From Isoetes taiwanensis (Eukaryota > Streptophyta > Lycopodiopsida > Isoetales > Isoetaceae): 64,000 nucleotides of DNA. Within the stretch, counting starts at the first letter, position 1, and every line of letters starts with the position of its first letter. Shown one piece after another: positions 1 through 64,000 of the stretch. Location: assembly GCA_021234155.1 (NCBI GenBank), contig JAJEKV010000018.1:21499252-21563251 (forward strand), in the 5' to 3' direction. Made by a program: the position numbers and the translations under genes. The notes below the pieces were generated by a model that saw only the letters and a list, made by a program, of their open reading frames with translations, ran no database searches and was not told the DNA's origin.

Positions 1-101
1 TTCTTATGTGTCCTGGCTCTGGGCTTGTTTCTTTTTTGGGGTTTCGGATAAGGAGGGATCGGGTTGCGTGGTGGGGAGCGGAGGTGGAGTCTTGTCCAAG
101 G

Positions 102-947
102 GGATTTGTGCCTGAGGTAAGCCAGTTGTGTTCTTCCCTTCAATCCGAGGTGTGTTGCTGGAGCTGTGGCCATGGAGCGTGGTGCAACTGTAGATCATTT
201 GCATTGTCAAGCTGTCTTTAGAGACCGGTTCAAGAGTCCTAGGACCATGAATGATGCCATAAAAAGAGATTTCAATTGGGTTTCTAAGCCTCCTGGTGTG
301 ATATTGGTATGCAAAGCCCTTAAAAATACTCGTCTTCATTGTTTTGAGGGTATGATTGGGTACTGTATGAAGGATGTGGGAAAAGTTCATTATGTCTGCC
401 ATCTTCATAATGTGAGTCAGGCTGCCATCGAGAAAGGTAAGGATTTGTATTTGAGATGGGGAGCTGGTGATACGAAAAATTTAGTTGTGCTTGATAACAA
501 AAACCTGTTGAATCGAGCTGCCCATTTTGTGAATTACCACGGGAACCGTAGATTGACTGCTAGTTTGTTGTATGCGCTGGCCAGGATGATTCGTTCTGGA
601 AAATTTACCTTGTCTAGTTCTTGGATTATCCCTTCTAACACTGCCCATATCAATGAGCACCGTGTCTGGGCTGCATGGAGAGTCCTGCTCAATCCTAGTC
701 ATTGCATGCCATCGTATATGAGAACCATCTTGTTTGGCCTGCCAACAGGTTTTATACTTGTGGAAAGGAATGGGCCTGGCGGAGGCGGTATTGAGATGAT
801 GCTATTCCTGCTGATGAGCAAGATAATAACTTCGAGAATATTCATGACGCTTCTTATAGTGGAGACAGTGCTGATGTTGTGATACTTGAGCCTGGTGTAG
901 ATTACATCCCTGTGCACAAAGGTGATCGTACCATGACTGTTGGCTGA
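102..947 (+). pseudogene. HUH/Rep-type endonuclease gene, frameshifted (Replitron-like?)
   Basis: Encodes a protein resembling single-tyrosine HUH endonucleases, which nick DNA and stay attached through a tyrosine. The sequence shows an ERGATVDHLHCQ segment (about 175-210), in which HLH followed by Q fits the metal-binding HUH motif, and IGYCMKD (about 355-376), which fits the Tyr-x-x-Lys active-site motif. A basic central region follows. The longest frame is 166-882, but its last ~30 residues look wrong. A shift at about 795 opens an acidic tail (DDAIPADEQD...) ending in a TGA at 945-947. A second shift near 150 joins an upstream GFVPEVSQ segment to the HUH frame. No helicase domain follows, so it is not a Helitron RepHel. 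Family knowledge suggests the recently described Replitron transposons; that assignment is inference. Two frameshifts suggest a decayed copy, unless short introns are involved. Confidence 0.5.
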
Positions 948-1020
948 TGAACTTGGTTGGCTCTTGATTGTACAGTTGGGTTTGTTTTCATAGTTTTGTT
1001 TGTTTATAGTTGCATGAGTT

Positions 1021-1431
1021 ATGGAGACCGATGGGGAAGCAGTTGTTGGCGTGGAGCAACCTGTTGTGTCTTTGCCTGAGTCTTTTATTTCATCTGCTGT
1101 AGAGGCATCCCATCCGGACCCTGTTGTGTTTTCGGCTGAATCTGAGGCGGCATTTTCTGCTCAGGAGTTCGTGCATAATGTTATCCAGATTGGAACTGAG
1201 GCGCATAGGATTGCGGCATCTTTGCGCTTGCTTAGGCGGCAGCTTAGAGGGTTCTACGTGTCCATTGACAATGCCATATCTGTTGTGGAGTGGGAGCATT
1301 TGGGGGTGCCCGTTTCTGAATTGCACATCTTGCATTCTCATATGAGCCTTGTGAGGGCATTGCTTGTGCAAGAAATACGGCAACTAGATGCAGTCATAAG
1401 GCATGCACAAAGTGGCTCAGCTATGAACTGA
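1021..1431 (+). CDS. Small hypothetical protein, 136 aa, downstream of HUH gene
   Basis: Unrecognised open frame beginning with ATG at 1021 and ending at TGA, 73 bases after the end of the HUH-type frame and on the same strand. The first ~45 residues are acidic and Pro/Val/Ser-rich. The remaining part (from about SAQEFVHNVIQ) looks helical, with regular Leu/Ile/Val spacing and a basic LRLLRRQLRG patch. No membrane segment or signal peptide is apparent. Its position suggests an accessory ORF of the same element, but no function can be read from it. It could also be a chance frame, although its length and composition are better than the surrounding shadows. Confidence 0.35.
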   Translation: METDGEAVVGVEQPVVSLPESFISSAVEASHPDPVVFSAESEAAFSAQEFVHNVIQIGTEAHRIAASLRLLRRQLRGFYVSIDNAISVVEWEHLGVPVSELHILHSHMSLVRALLVQEIRQLDAVIRHAQSGSAMN

Positions 1432-1700
1432 TTTCTTTACATGTTCTTCTTTGGTTGGCTTGTGATTTTGTATGTCGAGTTGATGAACCTTGATCTGGAT
1501 TTGTATTGTGAGGATTTGCTTGATGTATAATAGGTAATGGTTTGCTGGTTCTGAAATTGGTTAAGGTGGCCCGATTGTGTGCTGGCTTATAAATAATGTG
1601 TTGAATAACTGTGAGCGGGCTGCAATTGGTTGACAGAATTGTGTATCAAAATAATGTGCTGGTACTAACTTGTGTGCTTTGTTAGTGGGCTTCGGCCCCT

Positions 1701-1742
1701 AAGCATACTAGGCATCCCTCTTGTGGGATTCCTAGTATGCTT
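1701..1742. other. Strong hairpin downstream of HUH gene
   Basis: Perfect 12-bp inverted repeat AAGCATACTAGG / CCTAGTATGCTT. After one mismatch the pairing continues with ATCCC/GGGAT, leaving a 6-base TCTTGT loop. It lies 270 bases after the second ORF. HUH elements often end in or near hairpins, so it may be a terminus or replication structure. That is inference. Confidence 0.6.
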
Positions 1743-1763
1743 GGATGGGCGTCAGAACTTATA

Positions 1764-1782
1764 CTGGGGTTCGACTCCCCAG
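1764..1782 (+). promoter_or_regulatory. tRNA-like T-arm with Pol III B-box
   Basis: CTGGGG TTCGACT CCCCAG forms a T-arm with a 7-base loop. GGTTCGACTCC (1768-1778) matches the B-box consensus exactly. No convincing A box, D arm or anticodon arm is visible upstream, so this is not a complete tRNA gene. It may be a tRNA or SINE remnant. Confidence 0.35.
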
Positions 1783-2179
1783 GCTCATTGTTTGTTTGGC
1801 CAGACTTTGAAATTTGCAAGATTGTATTTATTCACATTATCAATGGTTTGCTTGGCTGATAGGGGTAAGTCAAATATAGGGGATTTGACCCTTTCTTGAC
1901 CTGAATTTGATGGCGTGGCATATGCTATGGCATATGCTTGCCTCCGATGGTCCCAAATGATAATACACCCCAAGTAACCAAGGTAACATTATTTTCATCG
2001 ACGTTCGACGGTACTTGGATGCCATAAGTGTGATCTCACCACCCTTACTTTTTAAGTCCCCTGGTGTTTGGCGGTGACGTGCCATGTCACCGAACAAAAC
2101 AAATTTTTTCTTTCCCGCCCAAACCCGATGGTTTAGGTTTGCGCAGCAGAGCAGGTTTCGTCCAGAACCAAGACACAGC

Positions 2180-5100
2180 ATGAGACTTCTTAGGCGCAAA
2201 CAGAAGCGTCAGGAGCCTTGTCCAAAGGTTTGCTCTTCTATATTGGATGTTTTGCATAACTGTTGTCTCTGGTCGTGTGGAAGAGAAAAAATAATTTAGG
2301 CAAACTTGGCAGCTAGGCGTCTTAGATTATCTAAAACATTGTGACATTTTACAACGTTAGTTTAGCTAAGTGCATTTACATTCTGCTTTCACAGTGTTAA
2401 ATTTACATGAAACGAGTTTTCCTCGTTTTTAACGTTTCTCGTCTTTTATTATGGACCAAAAGATTAAGTGTTCAATCCTGTACATGCTGCATATGTACAT
2501 TCTCCTTAGGAAAGCTGATTCATGTTGTTGTTTTTCTTGGCTAACATACGATATATTGCAGCTGGAGCTGGAGAGAGTTATTGGGTTGACAACTACTAGT
2601 GCATGTGGATTTGCTTGTAATCCTCATACGGGGGATATAGCATATATAGCAGGGTGTGTCGTGGTCATTTACCACGTGAAAAAGAGTCTCCAGGCACGTT
2701 TCTTTGCTTCATCTGGAGCACCTAAGGCTCTTTCTTGTCTGGCATTTTCTTATCAAGGAGGGAAGTTTCTGGCTGCTGGAGAGGTATAAACTTTCACATC
2801 CATCGGGGTTTCTTCTTTCTTCGCTAAATACACCTTATGCAGTCTGGACATCAACCTGCGGTTCTTGTTTGGGACGCTACAACTGGAACGCTTGTTGTGG
2901 AGCTGAAGTTGCATAAATTTGGAATTTGTTGCATTGAGTTTTCTCCAACTGGTATTGATTTTGCACCTGTTGTTTCCTTTACTTAGCTTTTAATTGAATT
3001 AAACACCATGTATCCTCTTTGTTTGCTTTTCCAGGAAAGCATCTGGTTTCGGCTGGTCTTCCTCATGATGGTTATATTTGCTTGTGGGAATGGAGAACAG
3101 GAGTTCTTCTGGCAAAAGTCAAGGCTTCAACTTCAGAATCTTCCATCTCGGACATTCGTTTTGCTTCTGATGGAAGTTTTTTTCTATCAGCTGGGATCAA
3201 GCATCTTAAGCAATGGACTATCGGACCTGCAGCTCGAGCTCGTTCAGGTGGAGCAGTGTCATTAGAACCAAAAACTGTGAATTTAGGTAGCCAGAAGGAT
3301 GCATCATTCATTTCCATTTCACGTGGAGTCTTTTACAAAGAACAAATTGCTTCTGGGCAGCCGGCGGAACTTCAACCTATGTATGTACTTACAACTAAAG
3401 GTGAGATTTCTCAACATTGTACTGCATGCTTTGGATTGGAAGTGATTAGCTTCATCTTGTCTATGGTTGAATTTTAAACTATATCCTGAAGTCTAACTTT
3501 GAAAAATGCCTTTTAAGCTGCTTTGATTATTCACAAGATTCTCCTCTAACAATTTGAAGAACATTATATGGATGTCTTGCAGGCATACTTTGTCTTCTAC
3601 ATCTAGGGGTTGCAGTTGAGAAATGGGTTGATTTGAAGGCAAGAACAACTTTTCTCTTCCTAGAAGTTTTCATGCTCTCCTTGCAGGCCCAAATTATAGT
3701 GCATAGGAACTTCTTTCTTTATCAGTAAAGCAGGCCACCCTGTGTTAGAAACTGAGACTGAAATGGCTGGGTATCACACTCAAGACCTCCTTGCAACTGG
3801 CTGTGTCTGATCCCATTCTCTAAATTTCCACAAATTCTCCTTAATAGGCACACGCTGCCCATGCCTTTTCCATTGTGCCAAAAACTTCTGCTCACAGGCA
3901 GTTCGTGGTAGAGGCATTGCTTTGAGCGTTTTTAAAATGCTAAAACGTGCAGTATGCCATCTCTTACTTTGCGTAGAAGAATATGAGTCATCATAATTCA
4001 ATGCGTTGATTTTTATTTTAGTTTTTGGTTCAGAGGTAGTCCTGAGGTCCTCAGGCTGATGCAGAAACAATCAGTTGGTTCCAAATATAGATTCTTGTAC
4101 TTATTTGCTTTCATGGGCTTTAGGGTCTGCAGTAGATGTAAAAAGGAATCTTTTTCTTGTCGCGCAAAACATATGGCTGTGATTTAAAAGCCATTGAAAT
4201 CGTCCCAGCTTGTTATATAATAGAAGAGAGACGTTTCACTGCCTCTTAAAGAGCCAAAAATTGATGAATTGTCTATTTTCGGAAATGTGTTGTTTTGTCT
4301 GCTCGTAAATTGAGGTAAAGATGGTGTGATCCTCAACGTAAGAAAGAATGGATTCGGAAGGTCCAGGGAAAGGACTTCTTTTTTTCCATTCAAAAAGAGC
4401 GCTAGCAGGTTGAGAGCGGGGACAAGAAAGGATAGTGATAAGAAGTTGAACTTTATGGATTAATTTAACAAAAAAGTTGATATGAGACCCTACAGAGAAG
4501 CACAAAATTTTTCTCAGAACAAATCAAGAGCAGGGAAAAAGCCTGACCTGTAAGGTTGACCTGGAAGAAGACCTGTAATAAGCTGGTATTTCCTGTTTAT
4601 TTAGAAAAAGAATACTACCAAATGCGTTTTCAAGGTGCTTGGCCAAAGCTCCTCCTATTTGACATGGTGACAAAACCTGCAGTTATATATGGGTCATAGA
4701 TTTGGGGAGTTGATCTATGGGGGCTTGGGTGAACTCAAGTAGGAGGCTTCAAATATCTCCCCTGTTTAGAATGATTAGAAGCAAACTTTCAGTGCGTTAC
4801 ATCTTGTTTGATTCGATGTTAATTTTCTACGGCTTGAAGTGGCCTTGTAAGCAATGCTTTACATATACAGGATATGCCGTGGTTGGCATATGTTTCTTAA
4901 GGTTGGCTCAGTGGATAATATTCTACTACTTTAATACAATCTAACAGCGCCTAACATGAAGTTTAACCAGCAGCATATCAATCAGCTCATCCTATTTGAT
5001 CTTAGAGCAGCTTTATATCTTAATTATATGGTCAAGGATGCCATGGGGCTGTCCATAAAAGAAAGGTTTTATTTGGATAGTTTTAAATTTTACTTTATTA

Positions 5101-14139: not shown

Positions 14140-14402
14140 GGTGCATATTCACACGGGGGGTGACTCCGGGCAACGAGAGCTGTTGGATAGGCATATTCAC
14201 CCCTTATTCCTTAATCTACACCGTACGTAAAGTTCCTTGTTTGTGGGGTATGCAAGTACAAAATTTGCTATACTGTATAACAAGATTCGCAAAATACTAT
14301 AAGATTTCAAGCGGAATACTATATGTTGTTGATTTCGTACGTGCAAAATACAATTATGAGGGCTCTCGCTGCCCTACGTCACTCCCCGTGTGAATATGCA
14401 CC
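14140..14402. mobile_element. MITE with ~40-bp terminal inverted repeats
   Basis: The left arm begins GGTGCATATTCACACGGGG and the right arm ends CCCCGTGTGAATATGCACC. Arms stay similar for about 40 bases (GTGACTCCGGGCAACGAGAGC against the inverted GTGACGTAGGGCAGCGAGAGC), with a few mismatches. Length is 263 bp with no coding capacity. No clear target duplication is visible, so the superfamily is undecided. Confidence 0.75.
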
Positions 14403-14578
14403 CAAACCAAAGGGGGTTTAAGGGGGATTTTAATTTAAATGTGTTAGACCTAATGGTCGTGTTAATTAATGTCAATGGTAGTTATGTGTTGGTTGTTAAT
14501 GTCAATGGTTGTTATGTGTTGGGGGATTTACTTTTTATATGTTGGATGTTAATAGTTTGTGTTGCAAAATTTTTTTTT

Positions 14579-42895: not shown

Positions 42896-43362
42896 AGAAC
42901 ATTGTTCAAGTATATGCAAGATCAAGGCCTATTGAGGCCATAAATTCCCAACAAATCAATCCATGTTTGTTTTATTTTCATATTTTCCATGTGTGTTACA
43001 AAAACTATTAGTTAGTCTTGAATAAAGATGATTTGTTGTTTTGAACTATATTTTAAAAGCCTTTTGTTATTGCTGATTTGAGTGTGAAGCAAAGTGCCAA
43101 GCATTAAAATTTATTCTGTTATGTGTGATATAAAGAAGGAAAGTGGATGGTTCGATATGTGTGAAGCCAAGTCTCAAAACCTTTAAGAGTTAAAGACTCT
43201 CATTCTTCTTTAAAAAAGTAACATGTAGTCTTGTGTGAAACTTAGCTTTTGTACAAAAAGGTAATAAGTTATTTCATGTGGAGCTTAGCTTTCTTTGCAG
43301 AATTACAGATATGTACTTTGCACAAAGATATGTGCAAATCTATTGTACTTGTAAAAGCTCAT

Positions 43363-43608
43363 GACAAAGAACACCATGACAAGTAATTTCTGTAATTTCT
43401 GTTACAGAACAACAATATTACATATTTACAGTGGCATGTACTAAGACAAAGAACACCATGACAGTAATTTCCGTAATTTCTGTTACAAAACAGCAATATT
43501 ACATATTTACAGTGGCATGTACTATTGACAAAGAACACCATGACAGTAATTTCTGTAATTTCTGTTACAGAACAGCAATATTACATAATTACAGTGGCAT
43601 GTATAATG
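43363..43608 (+). repeat. 82-bp tandem repeat, three copies
   Basis: The unit GACAAAGAACACCATGACAG ... AACAGCAATATTACATATTT ... CAGTGGCATGTA starts at 43363, 43445 and 43527, between the two Harbinger genes. Confidence 0.9.
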
Positions 43609-47203: not shown

Positions 47204-48010
47204 TTCTCGGATCGCGAGTCGAGAACAAGAAGAATACAACTGAAACAAAGGAATTTCATTACAGATTGAAACCAAAGTTGTAGTTGAAAAAGAATTTCTA
47301 TTAATAAATTGAATAGCTACAATGTATTTTACATCGGACGCAGAGACCAACGCGGTCTTGCTATCACTACAGTTACATCATCGTGGTAGATGGTCCACCT
47401 TAGGGGATGAACGTGCGGGGCTTCTTCACGAGGGGGCAACCTGAAGAATGTGGAATGCCTCACGAGGAGGTGCCTCGGGAACCACCCATTGATCTGTCCA
47501 CCGATTTCTCCACTCTTCTCCTGCACCTTTTCATCAATGGCCGGGTCGAATATGCTCCTTCCCCAACCTCCGTAGATGTCATGCAATGCTTGCAAGATGC
47601 TTTGAGCTTTTTGGACTTGCGAAATGTTCTTCCTCTCTCTTTCATTCCTTGAGGTCACATAGCGTCTGCAATCACGATTAAGCTTATTCCAAAGCCTGGG
47701 TAAGAGTGTAGCATGAGCGGGATCTGTGCCGCCTGGATCTGTGCCTGAGCGGGATCTGTGCGTGAGCGGGATCTGTGCCTGAACCACCTGGAGCAAGGAG
47801 ACTCCATGATTAACAATTACGGTGCCATTAGTCAAAACGAAGAAAAGAATGGAGAATTCAAAACAGAATGGAGAACATTCATTCCATATAGTTGTATCCA
47901 ATCACGTGACAAGCAGTGCCTTTCTCGACTCGCGAGTCGAGAAAGGCCCTGGGAAGTCAATGTACAACCGTGTTCATTATGCCTTTCTCGACTCGCGATT
48001 CGAGAAAGGC
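47204..48010. repeat. Long palindrome family, downstream group
   Basis: Three copies. 47204-47225 is imperfect. 47918-47947 is a perfect 30-base palindrome whose half is GCCTTTCTCGACTCG. 47981-48010 is the same with one mismatch. The last two sit in a 63-base direct duplication that includes TCAATGTACAA and TTCATTA. Confidence 0.9.
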
Positions 48011-48151
48011 AGGGAAAACTCAATGTACAAGTATATTCATTACAAAATATAGTACATTTCTTCACGTTTCTTTACAAAATTCACACAACTTTGCCATCTG
48101 AAAGCAGAGGTCACTTTTCTTGATCACCATAATATTTGTCGTCCATAGCCC

Positions 48152-56768: not shown

Positions 56769-57999
56769 CTAATTTCTCACTAAGAGTGGATCTGCTTCAG
56801 CATGTTCTTCCCTCACCTCTTCTCTCTCGGATGGCAGTGGACCTGCATTTTGAATTGCAGCATGCTTCTCTTTCTCCCATTGGTCTGCATTAGGGTCAGG
56901 ATTGATGGCAGAATTGTTGAATGGCCATACACCTGTCTTTTCAAATCTAGCCCTTATGTTAGATGCTGTTACACCCCATTTGACTGCATTGGAGGCCAAA
57001 GTAGCAAGATCTTCTTTACTCATCTCCTTGTTTCTGCCCTGTGCCATATGCTTGGCTCTTAATATCTTGAAATCGTGCTTGAATGGTCCAAAGCAAGCCA
57101 CGTCCAATGGCTGAAATTTATGTGAAGTGTGTGGAGGCATAGTCGCATGTGGAGGCCAAAATCTTTGGACTTTCTAATTGATTCAATTGTTACATCGCTT
57201 CCATGGGCATCGAAGATCATCAAATGTGGCCTGTCAGGGGATATACCTCCTGGAACATTTTTCTTGAAGTGATCTAGCCAGGCTTCAAAGAGGGCATCAG
57301 TTATCCAGACCTTTTTTTGAAAACTCATGATGGCCCCAGGTTTACATCCTGCGATGAGATTAGTATCCCTCATCCTAAGCCCCTTGAAAACATACAAATT
57401 AGGAATAACAAGTCCTTGGGCATTAACATATACCAAAATCGAAATCCATTCTGTGTTGGTTGGGATATTCACGTGAGGGTGCTTGTCTCCTCTTCTACCA
57501 AAAAATCTCATTCCAAATCTTGCACCAGCCATGATCCCTGTCTCGTCAGCGTTCCACACTCTTGATGCATCAACTTGAAGTCTATCTAATGCATCCTTCA
57601 AATGTGTATAAAAATTAGTAACATTAATAGTAGTCATGGCTCTTACCCTATTCAATTCAATAGGTTGAGCAGTTTTTTTAGCGAGGATTGGATGCCTCTT
57701 TTTAAAAGCCTCTACCATTTCTGCCCGGGTATGCCATCTTTGAAGATTGTCTTCTTGTATGCTGTCAATTCAGCCACCTTCTCCTTTAGAACATCTAATG
57801 TAACAGGCCTGCCTTCATCATACATTTGTAATACCCATTTGAGCAAAAAAGCTTCCTCAGATTGTGTCAAACTTTTGGGGACGCTCCCAAATATTTGGGA
57901 TGAAATCCCATCAAGATGGTTCCTGAATGAATAGAATAGAATAGAATAGAATAGGATAGAAATTAATGTCCCTTGTGCCCTCAGGCCCCTGGACTTATG
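56769..57999 (-). pseudogene. pogo/Tigger-type transposase, frameshifted
   Basis: Tc1/mariner-superfamily transposase with a CENP-B-like N-terminal part. LTQSEEAFLLKWVLQMYDEG and GIPGQKW in one frame lead, after a shift near 57715, into AFKKRHPILAKK. Then come VWNADETGIM (first Asp) and PHLMIFDAHGSDVT (second Asp). After another shift near 57140 come MPPHTSHKFQPLDVACFGPF (third Asp) and TGVWPFNNSAINP. Two shifts make it inactive. The N-terminal end is replaced by a (GAATA)n microsatellite at about 57926-57957. TA target sites and inverted ends were not found by eye. Confidence 0.85.
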
Positions 58000-58254: not shown

Positions 58255-59612
58255 CTAGATTGCGTCTGCCAGGTCCCGCATTGTCTCTGTCCTTGTCATT
58301 AGAATGTGTACTGGTTGTCCCCATCTTATATTTCTGTAATTATCTCTGATATCTCCGTATATCGGGCATTCATTAATCATGTGGTTCTCATCTTCCACTT
58401 TGCCAGTGTCACAGACTCTGCATATCCGACACTCCTGTTCTATTCCCCTCCACCTGTCTTTTTCAATTCTTAGATCATGACTCCCCATCCTAATTCTTGC
58501 GAGGATGTCTCTTCTGGATTTTCCCAGTAGGTTATCTTGGTACATCTGGTGTCCTATCTGATGTTCTGGATTGAAGACTGTCATGAGCCAGAGTGTCTTG
58601 GGTCCTGTGTGTTTTTGCAGCCATGCTCTGGCGGCCCTATCTGCCCATTCTTCCTTCCATTTCCCTTCATTTATCAGGTCACTCAGACTCATCCCCATTT
58701 CTCTGGTCCATCTCGCTACATCCTTGAACCACCCACTGCTTGCAAGAATGTGTGATTTTGCTGACTCGATGATTGTGATGCTTGACAGCTTCCCTTGGTA
58801 ATCTCCTGCATTGTCCTTTATTAGGTATTTGATAGTTCTCTCCCATGCCCTCACCTCCATTGGTTTCTGCCCAGTTTCGAGTACCATGATTGTTAGTGGT
58901 GTATTTGCCCGTACCTTAAACTCATGTTTATGCCATTGTCTAAGGATTCTTTCATGCTTGTCCCACTTTTTATCTGTTAGACCTGGCCCCCAAACTTCGG
59001 CCCCATACAGTTGTGTCGTGGCTACTATGGCACTAAATAAGTAGCATTTGATGTCCCAATCAATTATTCTACTTCTATTGCAGAAATTTTTCATGTTGAA
59101 ATAGCTCCCAATGGCTGATTAGAACCTCGTGTCTGCACCCTTAGCCCAATTTCCCGTGGCGTGTGCATCATACCCCAGATACCTGTATTCCATTGATTCC
59201 TCTATTTCTGTTTCCATGTATCTGAAAGGTCTGTGCTTATTCTTATGCCCGAAGATGACTATCTTGATTTTTGTCAGATTTACTGTTAGCCCTGTTTCCT
59301 TGCAGAAGGTTTCTAGTATCCTTAGTAATCTGTGCATCCCCTTATTCCTTGTGGCCATCATACTCAAATCATCTGCATACAACATAATAGGTACTTTGGT
59401 GTCTCCTAATGTAGGGGCATGTTCATCCCCCTGCTGTTCTACTATGTAGCCCTGCAACGCATCTATGTATATCCCGAAAAGGGTCGGAGATAGGGGACAC
59501 CCCTGTTTGACGCCTGTATCACAGTTTATTGCATGTCCTCCCTGTTCCATCTTCGCATATACACTATGGTATATGTTTGGGGTCTGGGTTCGGGAACTCC
59601 TGGAAGACAGCC
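58255..59612 (-). pseudogene. Non-LTR retrotransposon (LINE) reverse transcriptase, 5'-truncated by an LTR insertion
   Basis: A single minus frame from about 59612 to 58255 with only one stop (TAA 59119-59121). It has the reverse transcriptase core VKQGCPLSPTLFGIYIDAL and the catalytic box LYADDLSMMA, then a thumb-like region (YRYLGYDAHATGNW, TTQLYGAEVWGPGL). Near the end is a Cys/His cluster, CRICRVC ... ENHMINECPIYGD, of the zf-RVT kind. Its reading continues right up to the LTR boundary at 59615, so the 5' part is displaced beyond the inserted gypsy element. The near-intact frame implies a young copy. Confidence 0.85.
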
Positions 59613-59614
59613 CT

Positions 59615-60153
59615 CTGTGAGGACCCGTGGATCTAACAGGAGAGTCCGGGGGACTATGTCACGCGGGATTTGCAAGAAGAGAAGAAGAAGAAGAAAACAG
59701 AACAAATGAGAGGAAAACGATAAGCTTCCTTGATATCAATGATGAACATACATGAGCTCTCGCAATAGAGAGAAAAACTGAAAGGAGACAAGACTCAAAA
59801 CTCATCTAAAAACTCATGTGCTAGCTCTACTCATATATATAGTACAATGGCCTTTGGCCCAATATAGACACTCGATCGATTCTCGTGCCGACTCGAAGGA
59901 GGCCCGATTTGCAGGAATGTTGGCGTGCCTCTTGGAGTGCCTAGAATCACGCCCGCCGACGCGGGCGTGACGGGCCGTCACTTGTCCGAAGCGGGCGCCT
60001 CTTGTTGACGGGACGCAGCTTTGATCAAGGGGTCTCGGCCGCTTGGTCTTCTGCCGAGCCTTTGATGGCTGACCCGCGGTCGATCGAGGATCCTTGAGCT
60101 TGACCTGGTCTGTCAGATGATGAATAGTCCCGTACCAGGAGGCACAGACTAAC
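59615..60153 (-). mobile_element. 3' LTR of a Ty3/gypsy element (539 bp)
   Basis: Read on the minus strand it starts TGTTAGTCTGTGCC at 60153 and ends GGTCCTCACA at 59615, giving TGT...ACA ends. A TATA-like TATATATATGAG lies at about 59829-59841. It is preceded by a polypurine tract and inserted in the LINE frame. The partner 5' LTR is outside the window. Confidence 0.65.
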
Positions 60154-61549: not shown

Positions 61550-64000
61550 TTTTCGCTTCAGGTGATGAAATATTTTGAGACGAAAACCATTAACCAAGGT
61601 AGGTAATGGAGTGCCATCTAACTCGCCAGCTTGAAAAACGCCGGTCTAAACCACGAAACAATTTGATAAGGGCCAAGCCAACGAAACTTGAGTTTACCCG
61701 AAAAATTTTTGTACCGGAATCATAAAGAAGAACCAAATCGCCTTCTTTAAATGTTTTTGTCTTCGACGCTTGTCATGTAAAGATTTTTGCAATCGTTGTC
61801 CATGAAGAACACGAATATAAGCATCCCTTCGGGTTCATCCAACCGTTTCTAATTGATAGACCCTTTCTTTGAGTGCAAATGGTGGATTATGAGCAGTGCC
61901 GCTTGAAAACGGAGTGTTGGAAGGATGTATTCAAAACGGCATGAGAGCTTCCTGACCATAAACCAATTTAAAAGGAGGTGACCGGTAGCAATCTTGAAAC
62001 AAGTATTGTAGGCCCAAAGAACAAGAGGGAAGTTTTGTCCGCCAACTGCGGGGAAGCGCCACAAATTTTCTTGAGAATGGTGACCGAGTTTTGTTGGTGC
62101 TTTCGCCAAACCATTACCTTGAGGATAGTAAGGTGTGCTCTTGTGATGATGTATCGAGATAATCCGCCTCCTTGATAGTATGGTTGATGAAATGGACACC
62201 ACTTGGCCACCCACCAGCCCGCGGGGCAGCCGAATCAAGCGATAATTTGTTGATAGAGGACCCTAGTCGCGTTTTTGCCGCAGTTGTTGTCTCGAAGTGC
62301 ACAAGCTTCCGCCCATTTGGTGGCGAGTCGGTGAGAACCGTGAATGTAACGCACGGGTGTGCCGCCAGAGGATCTATAGGTCCCACAAAGTCCATTCCCC
62401 ATTTGCCGGGGAAGTGGCGTGGCGACCGGCGCCAAGGGAAGAGCGCCACGGCCGTGGGCGCCCCACCGGCGGGCAAGCCACACACGCGTCTTGGCGTAGG
62501 CGAGAGCATCTTTGAAGAGCGTGGGCCAATAATACCCAAAATTTAGAAGGATTTTATGCGTCGCGGTGGTGTCACCATGAAAATGACCACCACCTAGCCC
62601 TTTGATGAGCTTCTAACAATATCCGAACTTCATGAGGTAGAACACGCCGAAGGATGGTGTCCTTACCCTTTTGTAGAGATGTCCCGCAACCATGGTGTAG
62701 TCACGGACCTCCTGAGAAATTGATGGCGACGGATTGTCGCCAAGGTGAGAGAGCCGCCTCGCCTTCCGGTGGAAGAGCACCCGTGAGGAGGTACCGCTTG
62801 AAAATCATGGAACCAATGTGGTGTTGCCGCTACTAAAAAGAGCCGAGCATCGTGAAAGGCGCCCGAGACTCCGGGCTTGAGGGATCATCCGTGGATGCGA
62901 AAGATAATCCGATCTACATGAGATTTGCCGGCCTTTATGAACGATTTCAAAAGGAGCAAATTCTTGAGAAGAAGGACCCAACGAGCAATGCGCCCGTGGG
63001 CGGGACTTGTTGATCAAATAGAGGAGTGCTTGGTGGTCCACAAAGAACTTGATTTGACTGCCCAAAAGGTAATGACGGAAGCGCTGGACACGTAAAATGA
63101 GACCCAAAGCTTCACGCCCGCGTAAATAATAGTTGGCGCCAAAGAAATTGAGTTTTCTACCGGGCGTAGCGATTTGGTTTGTCGGGCAGCGCATCATATT
63201 CTTGAGAAAGAACAGCCCAATAGCAAATGCCGAGACATCTACATGAACGCGGAAAGGGCTTGTCCCATTGAGGAGGAACAAGAACCGGTGCCCGAGTAAG
63301 CAAAAGCTTCACCGTTGGAAAGCAAAGATCCCGCCTGGGAATTCCAAGCCCGTGGATTCGCCACCCGTGAGTTTATGAATGGATCCGCAATGGCCGCTAG
63401 TCCGTATGAAGGTGGAGTAATAATTGACCTTACCCAGAAAGATCGTGGTCTCCTTGATATTGGTCGGTGCTTGAGCCTTGAGCACAATAACCCATTTTGG
63501 CAGATCGTGGTGATACCCGCTTTGGTCGACAACATGGCCTAACAGAACACCGTAGGGTGACGCAAAAGGTGCATTTCTCGTGATTGAGACTAATGCCTGA
63601 CTCATCACATTTCGAAGACGAGTTCCAATTTATCCAAATGGTCAGCCATGGAATCAGAGGGCGCAGAAGTCATCTTGAAAAATTTGCAAGAAGGGATTTT
63701 CCTTCATGAAATCATGAAAAACCGAGAGCATGATGTGTTGAAACGCTGATGGAGAGTTTGATAATCCAAAAGGAACCACTTTGTAGGCAAAAGTACCTCT
63801 ACCGGGTGGTGAAAGTAGTCTTGAGTTGATCGATTCTTTGATTGAGATCCGATTGTAGCCGAAAAACCATCCATGAAGGAGTGCATCTCATGTCCAGCCC
63901 ACCTCTTCCGTAACCCGGTCCGTGGAAGGGAAGTGGAAAATGATCACGCCCGTGGCCCCATTGAGTTTCCGATAGTCCACACAGACGCGGATCTTACCAT
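61550..64000 (-). pseudogene. Ty3/gypsy pol (RT, RNase H, integrase), partial and decayed
   Basis: Minus-strand pol entering from beyond the window end. The reverse transcriptase start is at about 63940-64000 (IRVCVDYRKLN), with FMDGFS near 63870 and GHVVDQSG then FLGKVNYYSTFIR at 63309-63608. RNase H at 62805-63281 has VHVDVSAFAIG and FFVDHQALLYLINK. The integrase core at 62114-62539 has PGKWGMDFVGPIDP. The integrase C-terminal part at 61600-61860 has KEGDLVLLYDSGTK, and the end DGTPLPTLVNGFRLKIFH. RT, RNase H, integrase order defines Ty3/gypsy. Many frame changes show it is inactive. Confidence 0.85.

Follow-up and report, generated by a model that had tools for sequence, protein, structure and literature searches.

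The window analysed here, a stretch of 64,000 nucleotides from the genome of the lycophyte Isoetes taiwanensis, carries near its start (positions 102 to 947) what appears to be the gene of a HUH-type nuclease. The question raised by this locus is which kind of element brings such a gene into a land plant without a helicase. The preliminary description of the sequence had named two candidates, a Replitron-like transposon and an unnamed HUH lineage. Replitrons are a recent addition to the known transposon groups; the founding paper is reportedly that of Craig in 2023, and we know of no biochemical test of Replitron movement. The results presented below make it very probable that the window holds a dead copy of an autonomous two-gene Replitron of Isoetes taiwanensis, belonging to a family designated A, whose members would move by HUH nicking. 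The finding itself is mostly ordinary, as the copy is dead, its group is known, and Replitrons have already been reported from this host group. The features of the copy are as follows.

1..1973, forward strand: Replitron copy of family A, limits set by comparison with relatives; its start lies 213 bases upstream of the window and its 3' end at about 1973
121..882, forward strand: remainder of ORF1 (HUH nuclease), N-terminal part missing, ATG at 172; PF21859 at 62.5 bits and alignment with relatives
140..141, forward strand: point of a deletion; relatives have about 250 more bases here, including the ORF1 start and HUH motif I
196..204, forward strand: HUH motif His-Leu-His, invariant in eight aligned ORF1s
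361..372, forward strand: Tyr-Cys-Met-Lys with the presumed catalytic tyrosine; Tyr and Lys invariant in eight ORF1s
785..947, forward strand: C-terminal part of ORF1 after a frame shift near 785-795 (open frame 795-947), from alignment with relatives
1021..1431, forward strand: ORF2, 136 aa, predicted helical; from relatives' identity, dN/dS and a structure model
1687..1698, forward strand: small hairpin GGGC-TTCG-GCCC, start of the 3' module; from folding and the covariation alignment
1699..1744, forward strand: long hairpin of 19 pairs, six of them changed on both sides; fold z of the stretch -5.1
1764..1782, forward strand: hairpin resembling a tRNA T-arm, loop TTCGACT, with the B-box-like word GGTTCGACTCC; from folding and the covariation alignment
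1918..1937, forward strand: subterminal palindrome GCATATGC-TATG-GCATATGC, from sequence reading; fold z of 1860-1973 only -1.8
1954..1973, forward strand: 3' end, a decayed form of the terminal unit ATAATACACCCCAAATG, from comparison with relatives

The nuclease and its relatives in the genome

Within the frame 121-882, the His-Leu-His motif is directly followed by Cys-Gln, and an alignment of the window ORF1 with those of seven relatives from the same genome leaves ERG...DHLHxQ and GYCxKDxGKxH unchanged across all eight sequences. Because of this invariance, the HUH and YxxK motifs are not a product of chance, and the earlier reading of HLH followed by Q and a Tyr-x-x-Lys box is borne out. 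Compared with the Pfam profile Replitron_HUH (PF21859; curated cut-off 28.5 bits), the window ORF1 reaches 62.5 bits (E 6.8e-17), and the ORF1s of six relatives reach 75-79 bits, all six exceeding the cut-off. The match of the window ORF1 begins at profile position 27, and therefore the first part of its HUH domain is absent. The Replitron C-terminal domain, PF21860 (Replitron_C), scores 13.3 bits in the window ORF1 and 13.3-16.7 bits in four of the six relatives, below the cut-off of 27, with no match in L023 and L028. A Pfam scan of the window's two ORFs, six ORF1s and three ORF2s of relatives yielded no helicase family above cut-off, in agreement with the original description of a HUH nuclease gene without a helicase; the ORF1 of L028 gave a sub-threshold AAA_11 match (13.2 bits, cut-off 27) within a charged, coiled-coil-like stretch.

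Other collections were also searched. PDB sequences contained no relative of the window protein, the best profile match having an E-value of 6.4 and no Rep of the PDB appearing, and NCBIfam models gave no match for the three proteins tested. PHROGs returned families of unknown function only, led by phrog_9020 (E 3.7e-4, with L002), which matches a C-terminal part outside the HUH domain. Within a large protein set, nothing was found at E up to 1 with the window protein (486 candidates) or at E up to 0.001 with the eight-row ORF1 alignment (7837 candidates), and no published Replitron protein was found there. A single-sequence structure model of 166-792 had a mean pLDDT of 42.3, too low to judge the fold. 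The profile comparison that had been suggested earlier, made here with Pfam, PHROGs and NCBIfam, favours Replitrons.

The assembly of Isoetes taiwanensis (1,658,258,908 bases in 1110 contigs) contains many such genes. A search with PF21859 scored 150 of 2165 first-look candidates, and all of these exceeded the cut-off; no match was found in 14 named control genomes. The suggestion that better copies may exist elsewhere in the genome thus proved right, since at least 150 candidates pass PF21859 and relatives with open frames are present. Thirty loci were fetched, compared all against all and grouped by us: 14 belong to family A, that of the window, seven to B, five to C and two to D, which leaves two singletons. 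A DNA search with window 1-1900 added a sample of 40 scored copies from 1063 candidates, the window being among the 40. In five family-A copies with an open ORF1, this frame encodes 340-345 aa and is followed, after about 75 bases, by an ORF2 of 135-136 aa. Two side observations concern single places: two Replitron_HUH matches in the same orientation lie 1.1 kb apart, less than one full element, at G000:C1053:4546416-4546793 and 4547526-4547882 (forward strand), and window 14319-14498 (reverse strand) holds a fragment that matches the downstream part of a family-B locus (L022:3193-3378; 87% identity across 186 bases).

The second gene, the element ends and the 3' module

The ORF2 of the window is 60-90% identical to that of four aligned relatives from families A and C. 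It matched no Pfam family, and its single-sequence model consists of two long helices (mean pLDDT 66.3). Both genes are under purifying selection. For ORF1, ten comparisons within A give a dN/dS of 0.15-0.28 and a single one within B gives 0.15; between A and C, one pair has 0.09 at a dS of 2.6, and dS is saturated in the other four. For ORF2, dN/dS is 0.13-0.28 in seven of ten pairs within A, 0.28 in one C pair, 0.14-0.34 in six B pairs, and 0.09-0.17 in the six of ten A-C pairs whose dS is finite and near saturation (2.4-4.2). Values below 0.3 are thus found for ORF1 and in about 20 of 23 finite-dS pairs of ORF2, the exceptions being one B pair (0.34) and three close A pairs (0.52, 0.76 and 0.93), and all of these estimates are biased somewhat downward by the choice of copies with open frames. 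The high values of the three close pairs are put down to decay following insertion. Given the low dN/dS, ORF2 looks like a genuine protein gene of the element. The ORF2s of A/C and of B have a similar place and length, and the comparison of their profiles gives a probability of 0.2%, so that a common origin is not claimed.

The limits of the element were determined by comparison of copies. Family-A copies begin with ATAATGTGGCCGAAAT and end at or near ...GACACCCCAAATG, after which many carry an extra unit ATAATACACCCCAAATG, whole or partial. The 5' end is precise and the 3' end somewhat variable among copies. Truncation at one end also occurs; in a set of eight, the 3' end was unrecognisable in four and the 5' end absent in one. 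The 5' end of the window copy lies at L031:1788 (G000:C996:21499039), 213 bases upstream of window base 1, which gives a length of 2186 bases with the deletion included. The 5' sequence ATAATGTGG and the 3' sequence ...CACCCCAAATG are not inverted repeats, and two-unit copies have a further ATAAT at a distance of 12-17 bases from the 3' terminus, not exactly at it. A 22-mer of the 5' end (up to two mismatches) occurs at 237 places in the genome and a 28-mer of the 3' end (up to one mismatch) at 71, the reversed controls giving 0 in both cases. An inner copy of the 5' motif is present in seven of eleven family-A loci checked, about 350-400 bases before the 3' end where both were seen; an old tandem arrangement is the sole explanation offered for it. 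As a separate observation, the 3' end of the family-A copy L037 (G000:C1030) is replaced by its last ~65 bases in inverted form, a tail-to-tail arrangement.

The same ends enclose much shorter elements. Eight of 21 exact 3' ends were opened widely, and for seven of them a 5' end of matching orientation lies 0.2-1.3 kb upstream, the eighth (L105) having no recognised 5' end. These elements match L037 and L041, the two family-A copies compared, in their end regions, and six non-autonomous elements align with the window as far as 1973. From hand-typed coordinates of 15 5' ends and 19 3' ends, 15 pairings of 217-2645 bp were obtained; three are exactly 217 bp, and L103 is a fourth element of this length. 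Shared ends at short spacing form the pattern expected of non-autonomous partners.

Directly upstream of the window copy there is a head-to-tail junction, in which ...GACACCCCAAATG is joined to ATAATGTGGCCG. The abutting element is short and Replitron-like, extending from its 5' end at L031:733 to its 3' end at 1787 (1267 to 213 bases before the window). It carries a T-arm-like word on another stem and is similar to the non-autonomous locus L106, with 83% identity across 246 bases at its 5' end. The junction fits the joined ends of a rolling-circle or circle model, and insertion beside an older element would look the same.

A structured module precedes the 3' end. Folded as single-stranded DNA and compared with shuffles, window 1680-1800 has a z of -5.1 on the forward and -6.3 on the reverse strand. 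The covariation alignment comprised 13 copies, eleven of family A including the window and two of family C; L034, in which the hairpin is deleted, and copies missing the stretch were left out. Across these copies 96.0% of cells pair, and 7 of 29 pairs are changed on both sides, compared with a shuffled mean of 2.7 and one of 500 shuffles reaching as high. The covariation score is 0.146, with slid controls at most 0.077. Since the variable pairs include 10 cells of the G-U type and 12 of the A-C type, no folding strand is favoured. The T-arm look-alike has a 6-bp stem and a loop of TTCGACT, TTCAACT or TTCAATT, and this loop holds the consensus B-box word of tRNA genes. A T-arm-like word lies within five of seven non-autonomous elements, in L106 with a different stem. 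ARAGORN called no tRNA, and no Rfam family reached its gathering score in the window, the weak matches in 1500-2000 remaining below cut-off; the best of them (E 0.046) is an 18-base fragment of tmRNA that coincides with the T-arm.

A covariance model of the module detects it in A and C loci. With E allowed up to 5 it finds none in seven B, four D and four singleton loci, the B loci ending soon after ORF2, nor does it find the module in those A/C loci where the copy, or the sequence fetched, ends too early (L003, L024, L026, L042, L044, L008 and L015).

Replitrons are described with target-site duplications of 2-8 bp (PMC10741241). A first look found a copy's own flank repeat in 3 of 32 copies (C996, C1056 and C1007) versus 3 of 992 cross-copy pairs; the 3' end of C996 is truncated and its surroundings are locally repetitive. 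Both ends were recognised in 26 copies, and of these only C1044 (12) and L101 (7; 10 bases with one mismatch) have an ungapped repeat that touches the 5' end and scores at least 7, a level attained by 0.15% of 650 cross-copy pairs, whose maximum is 7. Repeats in the other 24 copies are no longer than in these controls, and a duplication of 2-4 bp is indistinguishable from chance. With gaps allowed, 27 copies were compared with 702 cross-copy pairs (maximum score 14.2). C1056 (79/69 bases, score 53.3) and C1007 (71/81, score 45.8) lie far above the control, and C1044 (17/17, score 14.5) is marginal, barely exceeding it. Each has its reservation: C1056, included in the gapped test only, has a truncated 5' end and a junction set by hand; in C1007 a gap of 3 bases separates the left repeat from the 5' end, and the right repeat begins within the last bases of the element; and the right flank of C1044 has two units, the second of which matches better than the one touching the element. 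A repeat at L107 (17.6, above the control of 14.2) was not counted, as it lies 91 bases away from the element. One family-D copy has a possible 4-bp duplication.

Both tests omitted L105, for want of a recognised 5' end, and copies in which one end was truncated or could not be recognised (C996, C1031, C1036, C1054, C131, C46 and C908+, the last being L085/L086, as well as L032-L034, L036-L039, L042, L044 and L046-L050). Being duplicates of a single insertion, L031 and C1033 do not count as independent. Most copies in the 26-copy ungapped and 27-copy gapped tests thus have no recognisable target-site duplication; for this reason, the 70-80 bp duplications are an observation and not a rule.

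These features bear on whether the element belongs to an unnamed HUH lineage of land plants outside the Replitrons. Such a lineage would account for a Replitron_C match that stays below cut-off and for the second ORF, the tRNA-like 3' module and the occasional long flank duplications, none of which is among the Replitron features given in the available portion of PMC10741241. It is nevertheless improbable, as the Replitron_HUH scores of the window and its relatives are more than twice the cut-off, and the lack of terminal inverted repeats and of a helicase, the size and the host group are all as reported for Replitrons in that portion (PMC10741241). Of the two candidates first named, the Replitron-like one is retained and the unnamed lineage is not.

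Lesions and the duplicated locus

The window copy is decayed, as had been noticed, although the damage differs from the two frameshifts originally proposed: it comes down to a single deletion, of about 250 bases, at 140/141, together with a single shift of frame near 785-795. Among 39 other scored copies, 31 match both sides of 140/141, and in all 31 the two matches are 212-286 bases apart (hand count); the remaining eight have no 5'-side match among the matches listed. The missing piece carries the ORF1 start and motif I (SVTL...). With motif I lost and the C-terminal frame changed, the copy is dead.

The locus is present twice in the assembly, window 1-3900 corresponding to G000:C1033:6357100-6362700 with insertion and flanks at 92-99% identity. 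Three flank stretches of the C1033 locus, which has the same insertion, are 96.1, 92.5 and 98.9% identical to those of the window (908, 307 and 1986 bases). The C1033 copy retains the deleted piece, with 248 bases between its two matches, so the deletion in the window is younger than the duplication. The doubling may reflect either a segmental duplication of recent date or haplotypes left unmerged.

A host gene domesticated from a Replitron could also leave one long open frame, as in the window copy, and a paralogous locus with flanks 92-99% identical, as at C1033. This origin is very improbable, given that motif I is lost and the frame changed, that at C1033 the entire stretch is duplicated, insertion included, as opposed to a gene being kept separately, and that both transposon ends are present. 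The Rep gene of an integrated CRESS-type single-stranded DNA virus, suggested by the Rep-like order of HUH and Tyr-x-x-Lys box, is scarcely credible in view of the specific Replitron family match, the repeated transposon ends, the lack of superfamily-3 helicase and capsid families in the scanned ORFs, and profile matches that include no Rep of the PDB.

Several other features were noted in the surroundings. Downstream of the Replitron copy, window 2400-3500 (forward strand) contains a MABP1/WDR62-like WD40 gene, in which one intron, read by eye, has only about 57 bases, which is short for a 1.66 Gb genome. Pieces of other transposable elements lie on the reverse strand, namely a DDE_1 transposase piece (57062-57769), a reverse transcriptase (RVT_1) remnant (59122-59658) and an RT RNase H piece (62808-63308). 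A tandem repeat at 43361-43608 has three copies of an 82-base unit, and 47917-48042 holds two copies of a 63-base unit with a long palindrome around CTCGCGAG.

Proposed movement and comparison with known systems

The preferred reading, an autonomous two-gene Replitron, suggests a way of moving whose steps of nicking, phosphotyrosine formation, strand displacement and strand transfer we infer from general knowledge of HUH enzymes. The HUH tyrosine would nick one strand at the element end, at or beside ...CACCCCAAATG^ATAATGTGG... (between CAAATG and ATAAT), forming a covalent phosphotyrosine intermediate. Host enzymes would then displace or copy the strand, starting at the precise 5' end and proceeding towards the 3' end, where the hairpin and T-arm module and the subterminal palindrome might serve as landmarks presenting that end, which is a guess. 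The freed strand would be joined to a new site through a second nick. The elements of 0.2-1.3 kb that have both shared ends would have been moved in trans, and ORF2 could be a helper that binds DNA or the nuclease, again a guess. Several points count against this reading: PF21860 matches only below cut-off, most of the copies compared have no recognisable target-site duplication and the rest fall outside 2-8 bp, the 3' end varies, and the fold model of the window protein is poor.

A more far-reaching proposal is tentative and, on balance, unlikely. It holds that A/C Replitrons are two-gene elements with a dedicated accessory ORF2 and a tRNA-like 3' structure that acts in transposition, either through the folding of a single-stranded end or through mimicry that draws a tRNA-gene factor or tRNA enzyme, and that their insertion is sometimes accompanied by flank duplications of 70-80 bp. 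If this is true, duplications of 70-80 bp as opposed to 2-8 bp would imply a different step of strand transfer or repair.

The genome offers useful material, since it has clear element ends, non-autonomous partners and at least 150 copies that exceed the Pfam cut-off. Through the end junction, the covariation of the 3' module and the conservation of the second protein, a model that was vague gives rise to specific tests.

Among known systems, the Rep of CRESS-DNA viruses and the TnpA of IS200/IS605 combine a HUH motif with a single catalytic tyrosine, as does the present protein. The viral Rep has its HUH domain joined to a superfamily-3 helicase, whereas here no superfamily-3 helicase, capsid family, NCBIfam match (three proteins) or match to a PDB Rep was found. 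Helitrons have a HUH domain joined to a helicase; they resemble the present element as eukaryotic transposons with a HUH nuclease and a hairpin towards the 3' end. They differ from it in that here no helicase was found, the tyrosine box is single and the hairpin lies about 230 bases from the 3' end, compared with 10-12 nt in Helitrons (PMC10741241).

Replitrons, according to the available portion of PMC10741241, measure 0.9-4 kb, occur in green algae, liverworts, mosses, lycophytes and ferns, and have short direct terminal repeats of 5-11 bp and no terminal inverted repeats. Measured against the features given there, the present element differs in its Replitron_C score below cut-off, its selected second ORF, its covarying 3' module and its target sites, most copies having no recognisable short duplication and 2 of 27 having one of 70-80 bp. 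It agrees with them in the HUH domain, the lack of a detected helicase and of terminal inverted repeats, the lycophyte host, and the size, since its end-to-end pairs of about 2.0-2.6 kb (up to 2645 bp) fall within the reported 0.9-4 kb (PMC10741241).
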